Source: Neotamlana nanhaiensis (GTDB lineage Bacteria > Bacteroidota > Bacteroidia > Flavobacteriales > Flavobacteriaceae). Taken from it: a DNA stretch of 64,000 bases. Under the pieces are notes generated by a model. The model made no database searches. It had not been told where the DNA came from and saw only the letters and a list, made by a program, of their open reading frames with translations. Location: assembly GCF_000943555.1 (NCBI RefSeq), contig NZ_JTDV01000001.1:310001-374000 (forward strand), in the 5' to 3' direction. A program made the translations under genes and the position numbers. This document shows positions 21,448-30,574 of this stretch, in pieces. How positions within the stretch are numbered: the stretch's first letter is position 1; every line of letters starts with the position of its first letter.

Positions 21448-21870
21448 ATGAAATTCGAAGATTCTCCCTTTTACATGGTTGAGAGTCCTCACAAACTGTT
21501 GCTACCTTTTGGTACATTTTACTTAACTAAACGTTATGTTGTTGCCGAAGTGTATGAAGGTGAACATTTTGACTGGAAAAAGGTTGAAATTTTAATTTGT
21601 GAGCTACTCGACCATTACAACACTAAACCAAAATTGGCTTATATAACAAATCGGGTTAACGACTACTCTGTTAATCCTCAAATTTGGGTCAAATGGCGAT
21701 CTCATTACAGTTTTATTGTAGCTAGCGCTATTGTTATTTACAACAATAATACGCTAATGAATGCTTCGATTGAAAGTGTGTTTGCCAGCAACAATTTAAA
21801 CCGATTTAGCTGTTTAAAAGACGCCATTGCCTGGGCAAATAATATAGAGGCATTAAAGACTAGAAATTGA
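21448..21870 (+). CDS. Conserved hypothetical protein, possible SpoIIAA-like fold
   Basis: A 140-residue soluble protein that I do not recognise. The pattern of alternating strands and helices (RYVVAEVYEGEHFDWKKVEILICELLDHY, then KLAYITNRVNDYSV and a second half with HYSFIVASAIVIYNNN) resembles SpoIIAA/STAS-like small folds seen in Flavobacteriia, but this is only a guess. It is divergent from pdxH, has TAATTTTG at 21421-21428 as a likely -7 box, and its 3' end overlaps the rnz stop region by 11 bp. Confidence 0.7.
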   Translation: MKFEDSPFYMVESPHKLLLPFGTFYLTKRYVVAEVYEGEHFDWKKVEILICELLDHYNTKPKLAYITNRVNDYSVNPQIWVKWRSHYSFIVASAIVIYNNNTLMNASIESVFASNNLNRFSCLKDAIAWANNIEALKTRN

Positions 21871-22765
21871 AAACTTTACCGTCTTCGCTAAGCTTTACGT
21901 TTTTAAAAACTGTTTTAGCTTCATTTTTAAATACCGATAAATCATCATATCGTGTGGAATAATGCCCTAAAAGTAAGGTTTTTGCACTCGCCATTTTAGC
22001 TATAGTTGCCGCTTGTTTTGCTGTAGTATGTTTTGTTTTTTCGGCATAATGCGCGTGTTTGTCTAAAAATGTAGATTCATGATACAGTACATCACAGTTT
22101 TTAATAATTGGCACAATTGCTTCTTTGTATTTGGTATCGCTACAAAAGGCATAACTTTTTGGCGCATTCGCAGGAAAGGTTACTGTTTTATTATCGATTA
22201 AAACACCATCTTCATTTTCAACATCAAAACCCTGTTTTAGTTTACGATAATACGCTACATTTATATTAGCTTCTTTTGCGGCATCAATATTTAGTTTACG
22301 CTCACCTTCTTTTTCTTTAAACAAATAACCATTGGTGTAAATTCTATGATCTAAAGGAATGGTGTGTACCTCTACTTTATCATCTTCAAAAATTAATTCT
22401 GATTTTTTTGATGTTAATTCATGAAAATATAGTTTATAGTTTGTCCATGAATCGGATAATTTAAGTTGCAAGGTAATCGCTTCTTTAATTCCCTTTGGGC
22501 CATAAATATGTAAATCGGCTTCACGTGTTAATAACCTAAAGGTTGAAATTAAACCAACCAAACCAAAAAAATGATCGCCATGTAAATGCGATATAAATAT
22601 GTGCTTTATCCTATTAAATTTTATTTTATGCTTGCGTAACTGTACCTGTGTGCCTTCACCACAATCAATTAAAAACATGTGATTGTTTATTTCTAACACC
22701 TGAGATGTGGTATTATTTAAAGTTCGTGGTGTGGCACTATAACAGCCTAAAATGGTTAACCTCAT
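21860..22765 (-). CDS. rnz: Ribonuclease Z
   Basis: A 301-residue metallo-beta-lactamase-fold endonuclease that trims tRNA precursors at the 3' end. Zinc-binding motif SHLHGDHFFGL (about 59-69), LIDCGEGTQVQLR (about 33-45), HIYGPKG, a later histidine in HTIPLDHR, FCSDTKY and the C-terminal LLGHYSTRY are all present. The flexible-arm region (about 150-195) is short and lysine rich. Last gene of the pyrR-pyrB-STAS-DUF3291-rnz cluster. It overlaps the DUF3291 gene by 4 bp at its start and the convergent unknown gene by 11 bp at its end. Confidence 0.95.
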   Translation of the reverse strand: MRLTILGCYSATPRTLNNTTSQVLEINNHMFLIDCGEGTQVQLRKHKIKFNRIKHIFISHLHGDHFFGLVGLISTFRLLTREADLHIYGPKGIKEAITLQLKLSDSWTNYKLYFHELTSKKSELIFEDDKVEVHTIPLDHRIYTNGYLFKEKEGERKLNIDAAKEANINVAYYRKLKQGFDVENEDGVLIDNKTVTFPANAPKSYAFCSDTKYKEAIVPIIKNCDVLYHESTFLDKHAHYAEKTKHTTAKQAATIAKMASAKTLLLGHYSTRYDDLSVFKNEAKTVFKNVKLSEDGKVFNF

Positions 22766-23238
22766 ATTTGCTTTAGAGGTTTATAATTAAGAAAATCGGT
22801 AATTGAAAATTTATCTTTAAAAGTAAACGCATAAGGCGAACTGCCATTTTCGTTTAAATAATCTAATTTATGCTTTGCGTCTTGCAAGGTCGGGATGTCT
22901 CCTTTAGGAATATACCAAAACGCCATATGACTCATTTCAATTTTTGAAAACCATTCTTTTTTTCGTTTGAAAATCTCGACATGACCTGATTTATAGGTAT
23001 AATTAAACAGTGCTTCTAAATTTTTCCAAACAGAGATATTTACAATAATTGAATCATCTTGAAAAACTTGAGCAACTTCATCTTTATCTTCGTCTTGCAA
23101 ACGCCAAATAAAGCCATCACTGTTATCTGCAATGGCATTAATTCTATCTACATTATTTACAAAATCTTGCATAATAGGATCGTCCATAGGTGCCAAACGT
23201 TTGGCTATATTTACTTGCGCGAGATAAAATTGTTGCAT
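22762..23238 (-). CDS. DUF3291-domain protein
   Basis: A 158-residue protein matching the DUF3291 family, an antibiotic biosynthesis monooxygenase-like ferredoxin fold: FYLAQVNIAKRLAPMDDP at the N-terminus, GFIWRLQDE, IIVNISVWKNLEALFNYTYKSGH, and the C-terminal AFTFKDKFS. No catalytic role is proven. Its start is 2 bp beyond the STAS gene stop and its end overlaps rnz by 4 bp, so it is translated as part of the same transcript. Confidence 0.82.
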   Translation of the reverse strand: MQQFYLAQVNIAKRLAPMDDPIMQDFVNNVDRINAIADNSDGFIWRLQDEDKDEVAQVFQDDSIIVNISVWKNLEALFNYTYKSGHVEIFKRKKEWFSKIEMSHMAFWYIPKGDIPTLQDAKHKLDYLNENGSSPYAFTFKDKFSITDFLNYKPLKQI

Positions 23239-23240
23239 GT

Positions 23241-23573
23241 TTAAAAACCTAAATCGCGTTCCATTTCTTCCATTTCAATAATATCGTAAGCCTCTTGAAG
23301 TGTGGGTACAATAATTATTTCATCGGGTGTTTTATCAACATCTATGCCTTGATTTACAATAACAAACGAATGTTTTGCTCCGCGATGTTTATTTGAAAGC
23401 TGTAAAAACTCAATAATTTTTTCTAAAGGAATAGCTTTTAAGGTATTTAAATTAACAATTATATTGTCGTTTTTAAATTTTGGGTATAAGCTTTCTATTT
23501 TTTTAACCAATTCGATAACCGAAGCATTTTCTTGGGTTATTAAGGTTGTGTTTTCATTTTTATCTATAATCAT
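23241..23573 (-). CDS. STAS-like small protein (anti-sigma antagonist-like) upstream of rnz
   Basis: A 110-residue protein with a beta-alpha pattern like STAS domains: NTTLITQENASVIELVKKIESLYP, DNIIVNLNTLKAIPLEKIIEFLQLSNKHRG, then KHSFVIVNQGIDV and a C-terminal helix rich in D and E. The serine phosphorylated in SpoIIAA-type proteins is not obvious. Such genes sit before rnz in many Flavobacteriia and are often mislabelled as ribonuclease Z. It starts 4 bp after pyrB stops. Confidence 0.7.
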   Translation of the reverse strand: MIIDKNENTTLITQENASVIELVKKIESLYPKFKNDNIIVNLNTLKAIPLEKIIEFLQLSNKHRGAKHSFVIVNQGIDVDKTPDEIIIVPTLQEAYDIIEMEEMERDLGF

Positions 23574-23577
23574 AGCC

Positions 23578-24507
23578 TTATTGTTTAATTTTTGAAGCTA
23601 ATAAATAAATAACAGCCATCCTAACGGCAACACCATTTTGTACTTGGTCTAAAATTATAGATTGACTAGAATCGGCCACATCGCTAGTAATTTCCACGCC
23701 ACGATTTATTGGACCAGGATGCATAATTGTAATCTCTTTATCTAAACTATCTAGCAACGCTTTGTTAACCCCAAATTGTTGGGTATATTCCCTTGTTGTT
23801 GGAAAATAACTAATATCCATGCGCTCGTTTTGTACACGAAGCATATTGGCCACATCGCACCAATTTAAGGCTTTACGCAAATTAGTTTCTACTTTAACGC
23901 CTAATTTATCGATGTATTTTGGTATTAATGTTTTTGGGCCACAAACCATAACTTGAGCACCTTGTAATTGCAACGCAAAAATGTTAGATAAGGCCACGCG
24001 ACTATGCAAAATATCGCCCACAATAACCACTTTTTTTCCTTTAACTTCGCCTAATTTCTCGCGAATAGAATATGAATCGAGTAAAGCTTGTGTTGGGTGT
24101 TCGTGCGCACCATCGCCAGCATTTACAATACTCGCATTAACATGCTTAGACAAAAACACACCTGCTCCAGGATTAGGATGACGCATAACCACCATATCGA
24201 CCTTCATCGATAAAATATTATTTACCGTATCTATTAAAGTTTCGCCTTTTTTAACAGATGATTGGGCTGAAGAAAAGTTTATAACATCGGCAGATAAACG
24301 CTTTTCGGCCAATTCAAAGGACAACTTGGTTCGTGTTGAGTTTTCAAAAAATAAATTGGCTATTGTTATATCGCGCAGCGAAGGGACTTTTTTAATTGGC
24401 CGATTTATAACTTCTTTAAAATGATCGGCAGTTTCAAAAATAAGTTTAATATCTTCTTTGTTAAGATACTTTATTCCTAATAAGTGATTGACACTTAATT
24501 CGCTCAT
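23578..24507 (-). CDS. pyrB: Aspartate carbamoyltransferase, catalytic subunit
   Basis: A 309-residue enzyme of pyrimidine synthesis that joins carbamoyl phosphate and aspartate. The carbamoyl-phosphate site FENSTRTKLSFE (about 54-65) and the 80s-loop SSVKKGET are intact, as are MRHPNPGAG, HEHPTQALLD (about 137-146), and the C-terminal IMHPGPINRGVEI. No pyrI-type regulatory subunit is present in this cluster. It has its own promoter and a 150-nt leader after pyrR. Confidence 0.96.
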   Translation of the reverse strand: MSELSVNHLLGIKYLNKEDIKLIFETADHFKEVINRPIKKVPSLRDITIANLFFENSTRTKLSFELAEKRLSADVINFSSAQSSVKKGETLIDTVNNILSMKVDMVVMRHPNPGAGVFLSKHVNASIVNAGDGAHEHPTQALLDSYSIREKLGEVKGKKVVIVGDILHSRVALSNIFALQLQGAQVMVCGPKTLIPKYIDKLGVKVETNLRKALNWCDVANMLRVQNERMDISYFPTTREYTQQFGVNKALLDSLDKEITIMHPGPINRGVEITSDVADSSQSIILDQVQNGVAVRMAVIYLLASKIKQ

Positions 24508-24511
24508 GTTT

Positions 24512-24545
24512 AAGTTAAAAGTTGATAAGTTAAAAGTTAAAAGTT
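24512..24545 (-). repeat. Near-tandem repeat in the pyrB leader
   Basis: AAGTTAAAAGTT occurs at 24512-24523 and 24527-24538, 15 bp apart, followed by a third partial copy AAAAGTTG, just upstream of the pyrB ATG. In the mRNA this is a pyrimidine-rich CAACTTTTAACTT repeat. Confidence 0.6.
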
Positions 24546-24561
24546 GCTTCTGCTTACTTTA

Positions 24562-24622
24562 AACTAAACTTTAGTTAATCATTTTTGTTTTACAAGATTA
24601 GATTTCACTCAACCTGATACAA
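24562..24622 (-). promoter_or_regulatory. pyrB promoter with adjacent palindrome
   Basis: On the minus strand: TTG (24622-24620), 19 bp, TAATCTTG (24600-24593), one mismatch from TAnnTTTG. A perfect palindrome AACTAAA-C-TTTAGTT (24562-24576) lies about 10-25 nt downstream of the predicted start site and could be an operator or a weak hairpin. No terminator/antiterminator pair is seen. Confidence 0.55.
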
Positions 24623-24658
24623 AACTTCAAGCTACGAGTTTCTATCTTAAACCTTTAT

Positions 24659-25198
24659 TTATTTTTCAATTAAGTAAACCGAATCTTCTTGATCGCGTTC
24701 TTTCCAATTTACTCTAACCTTTTCTTCGTTTATAACATCTACTTGCCTACCTCGGTAATTAGGTTGTATTGGTAAATGCCTACTAAAACGCCTATCTATT
24801 AAGGTTAATAACTCTATTTCGTTTGGTCTTCCAAAAGATTGAATAGCTGTTAATGCCGCACGAATGCTTCGTCCAGTATATAAAACATCATCAATAAACA
24901 CAATATTTTTATCTTCAACTAAAAAGTTTATTTTTGTTTTATTGGCTTCAAGTGGTTTATCACCGCGGCGAAAATCATCTCTAAAAAAAGTGATATCTAA
25001 ATAGCCTAAAGGGATGTTTTTTATTTTGTAATCTTCGGATAAAATTTTTGCTAATCTATCGGCTAAAAATATACCTCTTGGTTGTAAACCAATTAAAACC
25101 GTGTTCTGAAATTTGTGATGTTTTTCAATAAGTTGACAAGCCAATCGATGAAGAATGATGTTTACCTCTTTTTCGTTAAGTAACACTTTTTGACTCAT
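24659..25198 (-). CDS. pyrR: PyrR, pyrimidine regulator / uracil phosphoribosyltransferase
   Basis: About 179 residues from ATG 25198 (MSQKVLLNEKEV). Type I phosphoribosyltransferase fold with the PRPP loop KNIVFIDDVLYTGRSIRAA (about 91-109), GLQPRGIFLADRLA and LIDRRFSRHLPIQPNYRGRQV, as in PyrR. PyrR makes UMP from uracil and, in Firmicutes, binds pyr mRNA. Two upstream in-frame ATGs are rejected: a TACCTTTG -7 box at 25233-25226 overlaps the first and the second lies in a leader hairpin loop. pyrB follows 151 bp downstream. Confidence 0.92.
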   Translation of the reverse strand: MSQKVLLNEKEVNIILHRLACQLIEKHHKFQNTVLIGLQPRGIFLADRLAKILSEDYKIKNIPLGYLDITFFRDDFRRGDKPLEANKTKINFLVEDKNIVFIDDVLYTGRSIRAALTAIQSFGRPNEIELLTLIDRRFSRHLPIQPNYRGRQVDVINEEKVRVNWKERDQEDSVYLIEK

Positions 25199-25201
25199 AA
25201 T

Positions 25202-25233
25202 TTTTCCAAACATATATTTGGAAAACAAAGGTA
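25202..25233 (-). promoter_or_regulatory. pyrR -7 box and leader hairpin
   Basis: TACCTTTG (25233-25226, minus strand) matches the -7 consensus; no good TTG is seen at -33. Immediately downstream TTTTCCAAA pairs with TTTGGAAAA over 9 bp (25202-25225, loop of 6), so the mRNA should begin with a hairpin ending 3 nt before the ATG. Confidence 0.55.
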
Positions 25234-27882: not shown

Positions 27883-27915
27883 AAGACGAGCCATTTGGGT
27901 TCGTCTTTTTTTTAT
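27883..27915 (+). terminator. Intrinsic terminator after the BON/LysM gene
   Basis: Stem GACGAGCC / GGGTTCGTC with one G-U pair and an ATTT loop, followed by a run of eight T, 25 nt after the stop codon. Confidence 0.85.
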
Positions 27916-27984
27916 GCATTCACCTTATTATTTCATGCATAAACCGCAATTTCTTTCTCGTAACCCCAAATATTAATAGGTTTG
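27914..27984 (+). promoter_or_regulatory. lytS-type gene promoter with 21-bp direct repeat (candidate LytTR site)
   Basis: ATGCATTCACCTTA (27914-27927) and ATGCATAAACCGCA (27935-27948) are direct repeats offset by 21 bp. Their ACCGCA box ends 28 bp before a perfect -7 box TAGGTTTG (27977-27984). The neighbouring dioxygenase gene has the same layout. Binding by the co-encoded LytTR regulator is inference. Confidence 0.55.
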
Positions 27985-28000
27985 TAGCAACATTAAACTC

Positions 28001-29071
28001 ATGACAAGCATTTTAAAAAACAAACCTTTACTAGTAAACCTACTAATAGGGATTGGTTTAATTAGTATTCCTTTTTTAGCATCACCAGATTTAAGCTCTG
28101 GTTTTGATATGCTTAGCGTAAAAGGATTTCAACAAAGTTTACTCAGCTACACGTTACTAGTCATTTTTTTCTATGTGAATTATTATGTCATTATTCCTAA
28201 ACTTTACATCACTAAAAAATGGCTTTTATTTGCGCTTACTATGATTGTTTGTTATCTCATTATTTTAAAATTACCTCAGGCTTTAATTCAAGATTTTAAT
28301 GCTCCACCTTTCAACCCGCCAGTAAATAATCCATTTCAAAATACACCTCCGCCAGTTAATGGTTTTAAAAAGCATCCTTTTGTAGGTTTACTGTCGCGCG
28401 ATAATTATGTATTTCAGTTTTTTGGAGTTTTTATTTTGTCCTTATTCTTGAAATTTAATGAGCACTTAAATGAAATTAAAAATGAAAAATTAACAACCGA
28501 AGTTTCGTATTTAAAAGCGCAAATTAATCCGCATTTTCTCTTTAATACTTTAAATAGTTTGTATGCGTTGGCTTTAACAAAATCTGATAAAGCACCTAAC
28601 GCTATTTTAAAACTATCCGATTTAATGCGCCACGTCGTGTCTGAAAGCAATAAGGATTACATCTCCTTAGAAAAAGAAATAAAATATATTAAAAATTTTA
28701 TCGATTTACAGCAGCTACGTTTAAACGAAAACACAAAACTCATTACAAATTTTAAGGGTGATTTTAATAGATGTAAAATTGCACCTTTGTTACTCATTTC
28801 ATTTATTGAAAATGCTTTTAAATATGGCGTAAACACCACCGAATCGTCACAAATTTTTATTAATATTGAAGTAGACCACACTAAATTATTAACTTTAAAC
28901 GTTGAAAATACTATTGTTGCTGTTGCTAATTCTGAAGTGAATAAACCAACCGAAAAAGGATTAAAAAACACTAAAAAACAACTCAAGTATTTATACCCAA
29001 ACAAACACGATTTATTAATTTCGAAAGAAGCTGATAAATTTAGAGTACATTTAACCATTCAATTAGAATAA
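28001..29071 (+). CDS. LytS-family sensor histidine kinase
   Basis: A 356-residue kinase with four N-terminal membrane helices (about 12-30, 48-66, 76-94, 135-150), a proline-rich periplasmic loop (about 100-125) and a His_kinase domain. The phospho-acceptor is H178 in INPHFLFNTLNSL, the N box is in PLLLISFIENAFKYG (about 266-280), and the G box is reduced to KGLKNTKKQLKYLYP. This is the common 5TM-less LytS type of Flavobacteriia. Its stop abuts the response-regulator ATG. The signal is unknown. Confidence 0.92.
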   Translation: MTSILKNKPLLVNLLIGIGLISIPFLASPDLSSGFDMLSVKGFQQSLLSYTLLVIFFYVNYYVIIPKLYITKKWLLFALTMIVCYLIILKLPQALIQDFNAPPFNPPVNNPFQNTPPPVNGFKKHPFVGLLSRDNYVFQFFGVFILSLFLKFNEHLNEIKNEKLTTEVSYLKAQINPHFLFNTLNSLYALALTKSDKAPNAILKLSDLMRHVVSESNKDYISLEKEIKYIKNFIDLQQLRLNENTKLITNFKGDFNRCKIAPLLLISFIENAFKYGVNTTESSQIFINIEVDHTKLLTLNVENTIVAVANSEVNKPTEKGLKNTKKQLKYLYPNKHDLLISKEADKFRVHLTIQLE

Positions 29072-29755
29072 ATGATTAAAGCCATTGCCATAGACGACGA
29101 ACCTCTTGCCCTTCAAATAATAGACGTTTATTGCAATTCTTCTTCCGTAGTTCGTTTAGAAAAAACCTTTTCCGATTTAACTAATGCCAAGAAATACCTC
29201 AACAAATTCCCTATTGATGTTATTTTTTTAGATATAGAAATGCCCAAAACTAACGGCATCGAATTTTATAAAAGTTTAAACAGAGAAATCAAAGTTATTT
29301 TCACCACAGCTTACGACCACTACGCAGTTGAAGGTTTTAATGTAAATGCCGTAGATTATTTACTAAAACCTTTTTCTCTTGAACGCTTTAACGAAGCTAT
29401 TGACCGTGTACAGAAACTAAAAGCTTCAGAACATAATAATCCTGAAGAAAACACACATTTATCTATTCGTGCTAACTATAAACTTAATCGTATTCCGTTG
29501 GAAACTATCTTATATATTGAAGCTATGGACGACTATGTTAAAATTCATATTAAAGATGAAAAAACCATTGTAGCACGATCAACCATGAAAGGTATTTTAG
29601 AAAACTTACCCGAAAATCAATTCATCCGCATTCATAAATCTTATATTATTCCTTCAAAAAATATTAAACACATCTCTACAAGCGAAATATCGTTAGGATA
29701 CATTAGTCTTCCGTTGGGAAATAGTTATAAAAAAATGTTAGAAAACTTACTTTAA
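29072..29755 (+). CDS. LytTR-family response regulator
   Basis: A 227-residue regulator: a receiver domain (1-120) with acidic pair D8/D9, phosphorylation site D54 in IFLDIEMPKTNG and the lysine of LLKPFS near 104, then a LytTR DNA-binding domain (about 130-227) with LNRIPLETILYIEAMDDYVKIH and FIRIHKSYIIP. LytTR proteins bind short direct repeats about 21 bp apart. Such repeats precede both this operon and the next gene, making that dioxygenase gene a probable target. Confidence 0.94.
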   Translation: MIKAIAIDDEPLALQIIDVYCNSSSVVRLEKTFSDLTNAKKYLNKFPIDVIFLDIEMPKTNGIEFYKSLNREIKVIFTTAYDHYAVEGFNVNAVDYLLKPFSLERFNEAIDRVQKLKASEHNNPEENTHLSIRANYKLNRIPLETILYIEAMDDYVKIHIKDEKTIVARSTMKGILENLPENQFIRIHKSYIIPSKNIKHISTSEISLGYISLPLGNSYKKMLENLL

Positions 29756-29764
29756 TTCATTTTT

Positions 29765-29827
29765 ACCGCAAATTTTAGATAACAAACCGCATAAAATTCT
29801 TTATCAATAACCTATTAGATACATTTA
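29765..29827 (+). promoter_or_regulatory. Dioxygenase-gene promoter with 21-bp ACCGCA direct repeat (candidate LytTR site)
   Basis: ACCGCA at 29765-29770 and 29786-29791, exactly 21 bp apart, lie 28 bp before a TACATTTA -7-like box (29820-29827). The distance is identical to that in the lytS promoter. The -33 TTG is missing in both, which fits activator-dependent promoters (inference). Confidence 0.55.
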
Positions 29828-29851
29828 CTTTAATATGAAAAACTAATAGCT

Positions 29852-30574
29852 ATGAAAAGAAAAGATTTTTTTAAAAAAGGATTAGCAGGTCTTGGCACTA
29901 TTGTGGCGGTTCCTGCATTATTATCGGCATGTTCAACTGAAGATTCTGAAGACATTAAAAATACAAACGACAGCAATGATACTGGCAGTGAAACCGATGG
30001 CGACTGCTCACTATCGCCAAGTGAGACTGCGGGTCCGTTTCCAATTAAGACTCCTTCCGATTTAGTTAGAGAAAACATTATTGGCGATCGCTCTGGTGTA
30101 GCCTTATTAATTACACTAACCATACAAGACCAAAGCGACGATTGCGAGCCTCTTTCTGGAGTTTATGTTGATTTATGGCATTGCGATGCTCAAGGCGATT
30201 ACTCCGAATATGGCGGCACAGGGATGCAAAGCACAAATTACACCAACAACCACTTTTTAAGAGGAAGACAAACTACCGATGCCAACGGGCAAGCTTCATT
30301 TATTAGCATTTTTCCTGGTTGGTACAATGGTAGAGCACCACACATACACATTGAAGTTTTAGATCAAAACGAAAACTCTATTCGCGTAACACAAATAGCT
30401 TTTCCTAAAGATATTTGCGACACAGTTTATGCAACATCCGATTATAACGGAGAAGCCAATACTTTAAATGAAAGTGACAATGTTTTTTCCGATAGTTTGG
30501 ACGGAAATATGCTAGACTCAATTACTGGCAACACTACCGACGGATACACTCTTTTAAAAACAATTACTGTATAA
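29852..30574 (+). CDS. Intradiol ring-cleavage dioxygenase-like lipoprotein
   Basis: A 240-residue exported protein. Residues 1-27 form a signal peptide ending in lipobox LSAC; the KRK start lacks the twin arginine of a strict Tat signal. A serine/aspartate-rich linker leads to an intradiol dioxygenase domain with SPSETAGPFP, GVYVDLWHCDAQGDYSEYG and FPGWYNGRAPHIHIEV. Tyrosines and the HIH histidines supply the Fe(III) site, as in catechol 1,2-dioxygenases. Extracytoplasmic members are known in Bacteroidota, but substrates are not. Probably controlled by the adjacent LytS/LytTR pair. Confidence 0.87.
   Translation: MKRKDFFKKGLAGLGTIVAVPALLSACSTEDSEDIKNTNDSNDTGSETDGDCSLSPSETAGPFPIKTPSDLVRENIIGDRSGVALLITLTIQDQSDDCEPLSGVYVDLWHCDAQGDYSEYGGTGMQSTNYTNNHFLRGRQTTDANGQASFISIFPGWYNGRAPHIHIEVLDQNENSIRVTQIAFPKDICDTVYATSDYNGEANTLNESDNVFSDSLDGNMLDSITGNTTDGYTLLKTITV

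Follow-up and report, generated by a model that had tools for sequence, protein, structure and literature searches.

AgrA, ComE and BtsR are LytTR-family regulators with LytS-type kinases. In the portion of PMC11347149 that was available, canonical LytTR sites are described as paired 9-bp direct repeats lying 10–13 bp apart, and the regulators as mostly binding upstream of the −35 element and activating. The locus studied here lies in a stretch of 64,000 nucleotides from Neotamlana nanhaiensis, hereafter the window, and resembles these systems in having a regulator with the same receiver and LytTR domains, a PF06580 partner kinase, and a pair of 9-bp direct repeats that are separated by 12 bp and lie upstream of the core promoter. 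In regulator type and site geometry, the system is an ordinary LytTR system. Unlike known LytTR systems, it has the box sequence TTTACCKCA (K = G/T), a Bacteroidota-type −7 promoter, and as its predicted target an exported ring-cleavage-type enzyme that is exchanged between lineages. A literature search over titles and abstracts, with most subscription journals outside its scope, listed no paper that appears to describe this module.

Our main reading, to which we assign a probability of about 0.87, is that a dedicated LytTR two-component system would switch on the adjacent exported enzyme, and that the enzyme is exchangeable while the operator is kept.

The kinase, the regulator and the dioxygenase-like protein

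The gene lytS (28001..29071, + strand) encodes a membrane histidine kinase (PF06580, E = 1.2e-25) and is followed by lytR (29072..29755, + strand), which encodes a response regulator with a receiver domain (PF00072, 4.2e-20) and a LytTR DNA-binding domain (PF04397, 1.4e-16). Of the features that define a LytTR two-component system, both regulator domains, the PF06580 membrane kinase, and 9-bp repeats with 12 bp between them were found. The best NCBIfam match was BtsR, far under its cut-off (111 of 246 bits). Hydropathy indicated three hydrophobic stretches in lytS, and a fourth helix appeared in a poor AlphaFold model (mean pLDDT 58.0); the loops are short, and no large extracytoplasmic domain was seen by hydropathy or in that low-confidence model. 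Given these stretches and short loops, the signal of the kinase is probably to be sought within the membrane or close to it. A likely terminator, a hairpin (AAGACGA...TCGTCTT) accompanied by a run of T, was noted by eye at 27883–27913, where the LysM gene is separated from lytS.

The third gene (29852..30574, + strand) encodes an intradiol-dioxygenase-like protein (PF00775), a putative lipoprotein whose export was judged by eye from the N-terminus. The PF00775 domain was matched in all 14 aligned members of the dioxygenase set A3, and Y117, Y158, H164 and H166, which we take to be the iron-binding Tyr and His positions of the intradiol dioxygenase family, were invariant in the alignment of the 14 members. 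The domain expected of an intradiol dioxygenase was therefore present, as were the two Tyr and the two His. The NCBIfam catechol 1,2- and protocatechuate 3,4-dioxygenase equivalogs scored 20–32 bits against cut-offs of 126–404, so that neither specific name can be assigned on this basis. By sequence profile, the closest solved chains were the spider-mite proteins 6bdj (E = 7.6e-33) and 5vg2. The window protein shares PF00775 and the two Tyr and two His with these and with the bacterial structures 4ilt and 4ilv, and, unlike the spider-mite type, is bacterial, has a lipoprotein-like N-terminus and is predicted to be under LytTR control. The AlphaFold model (mean pLDDT 51.3) was too poor for judging the active site. 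Judging from family membership, the exported enzyme probably opens aromatic rings or modifies phenols.

Boxes, promoter geometry and direction of control

Upstream of lytS, the + strand carries a distal box (27919..27927, TTCACCTTA), a proximal box 21 bp after it (27940..27948, TAAACCGCA) and, 28 bp after the proximal box, a −7 element (27977..27984, TAGGTTTG). The dioxygenase gene is preceded on the same strand by a distal box (29762..29770, TTTACCGCA), a proximal box at the same 21-bp period (29783..29791, CAAACCGCA) and a −7 element, again 28 bp on (29820..29827, TACATTTA). Both promoters follow the consensus arrangement TTTACCKCA-N12-TTTACCKCA, and in both the end of the proximal box is exactly 28 bp from a TAnnTTTG-type −7 element. 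The −33 and −7 elements are spaced 19 bp apart, and in the −33 stretches placed with this spacing neither of the two window promoters has a TTG. Direct reading thus confirmed what the original prediction had reported from the window: ACCGCA-type direct repeats with a 21-bp period at both promoters, one degenerate copy (ACCTTA, in the distal box at lytS), and equal 28-bp gaps. Its remark that a good −33 TTG was missing was likewise borne out. Since the −7 box lies at −12 to −5 in flavobacterial promoters according to the accessible part of PMC9723704, the boxes would span about −70 to −62 (distal) and −49 to −41 (proximal), with transcription expected to start near 27989 for lytS and near 29832 for the dioxygenase gene.

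Taken alone, the window evidence for the repeats is modest, and that for the lytS pair is weak. In 1000 dinucleotide shuffles of the respective 140-bp upstream regions, the box pairs had p = 0.008 (lytS) and 0.001 (dioxygenase), while ACCGCA-N15-ACCGCA with at most 2 mismatches had six window matches versus 2.07 expected. The original prediction had proposed a genome search for such repeats. Exact ACCGCA-N(13–17)-ACCGCA had two matches in the whole genome versus five for the reversed control and was set aside as uninformative by itself; the second exact match (contig C36) was dropped, being absent among the matches with a −7 element. Once a −7 element 28 bp on was required as well, the 4.02-Mb genome had a single site without mismatch, the dioxygenase promoter, and a single one with one mismatch, the lytS promoter. 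The case for the repeats being real comes from the −7 element and from conservation.

The geometry was scored over 21 promoters of a close set of 13 loci, comprising all 13 target promoters and, of the 13 kinase promoters, the 8 at which boxes are present. The mean −7 score was 5.1 of 6 at a gap of 28 and at most 2.86 at the other gaps from 8 to 44; 18 of the 21 promoters scored at least 5 of 6 at gap 28, and the G422 kinase promoter has a gap of 29. Two boxes of at least 7 of 9 occurred at the 21-bp period in 19 of 21 promoters, and no other single period between 10 and 32 had them in more than three. This count is partly circular because the eight kinase promoters were selected for carrying boxes and these same sequences supplied the consensus; the −7 consensus does not depend on the boxes. 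Among the 38 box sites of the larger set described below, a −7 score of at least 5 of 6 was found at gap 28 in 27 and at gap 27 in six. A TTG in the −33 stretch was absent in 18 of the 21 close-set promoters and present in three (G198, G143, G388 dioxygenase); consequently, the missing −33 element is not universal.

As the family assignments suggest, the kinase would sense a signal at or in the membrane and then phosphorylate the regulator, which would bind the two 9-bp repeats on one face of the DNA. With the proximal repeat ending 28 bp upstream of the −7 element, at about −41 from the start, the bound regulator could touch RNA polymerase and make up for the weak or missing −33 element, that is, activate. 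Because the −33 TTG is lacking in both window promoters and in most of the close set, activation by polymerase contact appears likeliest. We consider it improbable, though worth weighing, that the regulator binds the boxes and represses, with the signal relieving repression. The LytTR repressor CoxC, whose operator overlaps −35 according to the available part of PMC11347149, provides a precedent, and the proximal box is close to the −33 region, which carries a TTG in the three promoters named above. Against repression, the boxes lie wholly upstream of where a −33 element would be expected, at a nearly fixed distance, and the lack of the −33 TTG in both window promoters is the usual picture of activator-dependent promoters.

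Occurrence of the boxes across genomes

Dioxygenase relatives (E ≤ 1e-40) were found in 22 of 397 family genomes and the kinase subfamily (E ≤ 1e-90) in 8 of 397, the own genome included in both counts. Kinase, regulator and dioxygenase occurred together in ten genomes, namely the own genome, G287, G143, G388, G198, G247 and four Muricauda/Allomuricauda records. Upstream of the dioxygenase, the exact-motif score was 9–12 of 12 in the ten linked genomes and at most 8 of 12 in all 20 relatives without a regulator match in the fetched stretch. At one further locus (L048, G169), the regulator is more distant and the score was 7. For 15 of the 20 unlinked dioxygenases no LytTR pair was recognized; in the others, a different LytTR pair was adjacent (G270, G075) or distant, about 3 kb off (G247, G403, G106). 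With no boxes at these 20 relatives and no recognized LytTR pair at 15 of them, the dioxygenase does not need this switch. At L067, L070 and L137 (G169, G270, G075), a different LytTR kinase–regulator pair accompanies a dioxygenase and a kelch lipoprotein, together with DUF4907 at L067 and L070; Pfam was run on L070 only and the others were called by tblastn. The dioxygenases of these three loci have no boxes (7, 6 and 6 of 12).

More distant LytTR kinase loci were considered as carriers of the same boxes and rejected, as none of 27 scored over 9 of 12 upstream (start codons being uncertain in several), and the five own-genome relatives of the kinase that were examined scored at most 8 of 12. 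Searching 14 genomes for exact occurrences of both boxes with a −7 element 24–32 bp on gave 12 matches, all at a kinase or target promoter, versus one for the reversed pattern. With the gap fixed at 28 bp and at most one mismatch, 17 of 19 matches were at the module, the others being in G198 and G002. Patterns with up to two mismatches were discarded as mostly noise (nine matches in the own genome versus six in the control).

A wider kinase profile search (E ≤ 1e-85) gave hits in 23 of the 395 genomes sampled from the class and in 20 of the 395 from the order, the own genome being counted in each; together with the 13 close loci, this yielded 58 loci of the kinase subfamily. The next recognized gene after the regulator was the dioxygenase in 29, a DUF3500 gene in 6, an arylsulfotransferase-like gene in 9 and none in 13, with one locus not placed; the arylsulfotransferase-like calls are based on PF05935 at two loci and on tblastn at the rest. 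Boxes were counted at a threshold of at least 14 of 18 between the regulator and the next recognized gene at 56 of the 58 loci. G880 was left out because its regulator and kinase were unrecognized with the window queries, and G690 because its contig ends just after the regulator; G612 was scored on a shorter locus (L158).

Boxes were present at 27 of 29 dioxygenase, 5 of 6 DUF3500 and 6 of 9 arylsulfotransferase-like loci (0.21, 0.06 and 0.07 expected), that is, at 38 of 44 target-linked loci versus 0.34 expected from shuffles. None of the 12 evaluable loci without a recognized target had them (0.22 expected), over stretches about three times as long. Outside the 13 close loci that supplied the consensus, 25 of 31 target-linked loci had boxes, and the six of 44 under the threshold were G696, G800, G1009a, G499, G612 and G460. 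Box-bearing loci came from eight families (f1, f5, f36, f42, f43, f52, f56, f82) of what is probably the class Bacteroidia. The loci are not independent, as four are from Muricauda and two genera (g147, g38) supply many of the order-level loci; therefore, the counts are inflated. Conservation upstream of orthologues, on which the original prediction had let its case depend, was thus found in both close and wider loci. At L183 and L185 (G1022, G1128), the kinase has an outward-facing DUF3500 gene on the flank opposite the regulator, and no boxes follow the regulator.

The repeats are linked to the regulator by this co-occurrence and specificity across loci. The boxes might in principle be the site of another regulator, their closeness to lytSR being incidental, but this is very unlikely given that nearly all whole-genome matches with at most one mismatch sit at the module, while all 12 evaluable loci of the same kinase subfamily without a recognized target and all 20 unlinked dioxygenases lack boxes. 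It is extremely unlikely that the repeats arose by chance, or that one promoter was recently copied from the other: the lytS pair is unremarkable within the window alone, but the two promoters do not have the same 12-bp and 28-bp spacers, and many genomes show the same arrangement.

Under activation of the adjacent gene by the LytTR system, the target here would be the exported intradiol-dioxygenase-like protein and, here and in some relatives, the system's own operon. Judged from extrapolated start codons, the kinase promoter carries boxes and a −7 element in 13 of 58 loci, and 5 of the 13 close orthologues have no clear kinase boxes (G394, G001, G003, G143, G388; p 0.1 to 0.76). Feedback thus looks optional and target control the rule, so that of the two targets originally proposed, own operon and dioxygenase, the neighboring gene represents the general pattern and autoregulation does not. 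In G388, the target boxes are still present although the kinase is interrupted by a stop codon. Such a broken kinase gene with the target gene remaining was observed at L064/L114 (G388) and at L176 (G1009).

The gene behind the regulator and the putative signal

The dioxygenase holds as the predicted target in the window, but not everywhere, since the same kind of operator and regulator elsewhere precede a DUF3500 or arylsulfotransferase-like exported protein; with these amendments, the comparative evidence supports the original interpretation overall. DUF3500 (PF12006, including fungal AN10530) occupies the dioxygenase's place in G001 and G003, which are of the same genus, in G394 and at three further loci. 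In the three named genomes, it is the gene after the regulator and is preceded by paired boxes with the same 28-bp gap, box 2 being TTAATCGCA or TTTATCGCA. The G001 protein matched DUF3500 in Pfam with E = 2.2e-65 and shares 92% identity with the G003 protein and 65% with that of G394; Pfam was run on G001 and G1071, and the others were identified by profile search or tblastn. The Neotamlana nanhaiensis genome has no DUF3500 match. The G003 pair adjoins the same five genes as are found at 21860–25228 of the window (74–97% identity).

The regulator tree united the own row with G287, G394, G001 and G003 in a supported clade (100/99) that is nested among the dioxygenase-linked rows. Within this clade, G394 grouped with the own row (94/89) and the three DUF3500 rows were not grouped. 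Contrary to this, the joined kinase and regulator tree grouped the three DUF3500 rows (96/94). Under either tree, the inferred history is one in which the target changed at least once, with regulator and operator staying.

Further arrangements were observed behind the regulator. At L215 (G1071), the gene for a HupE/UreJ-type membrane protein sits between two DUF3500 genes, the second of which is preceded by a second paired box. At L199, L200, L203, L204, L206, L207 and L209, the arylsulfotransferase-like gene is followed by one for a protein of about 335 aa and then by the start of a third, apparently CotH-like gene; the Pfam search covered the three genes of L199 and, at L204, only the first.

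Arylsulfotransferases act on phenols. The spider-mite proteins related to the dioxygenase cleave numerous aromatic compounds of plants, as stated in the accessible part of PMC9167512, and an Aspergillus DUF3500 protein has been proposed to open the 1,2,3,5-tetrahydroxybenzene ring, a proposal quoted in the available part of a review (PMC12388069). The only solved relative of DUF3500 at E ≤ 1 was 9x86 'Amc20', for which nothing related by title was found among the literature matches listed. Because the three target families point to phenolics, the system might respond to extracellular phenolic or catecholic compounds, a role to which we give slightly less than an even chance. A pirin-like gene is next after the dioxygenase in six of the ten close loci (L037–L040, L068, L069), and all three pirin-like proteins tested by Pfam (L069, L037, L036) matched the quercetinase C-terminal cupin; these neighbors, with the target families, are consistent, if only indirectly, with a phenolic signal. 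At L036, the pirin-like protein is upstream of the dioxygenase.

More tentatively still, the module may be a class-wide LytTR polyphenol system, in which a single kinase–regulator subfamily and a single operator serve as a fixed socket for exported enzymes that modify phenols but are unrelated to one another (intradiol dioxygenase, DUF3500 ring-opener, arylsulfotransferase). The shared signal would then be a phenolic or catecholic compound, which a small membrane domain would sense without any extracytoplasmic sensor.

The analysis provides a predicted operator, a regulon of one or two promoters and a testable signal class for an uncharacterized LytTR subfamily, and the shared regulation suggests a role for DUF3500 proteins and exported intradiol dioxygenases. 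This bacterial group is known mainly for polysaccharide use. If the signal is phenolic, the module would be a sensor of plant or algal polyphenols and may serve as a compact reporter for such compounds.
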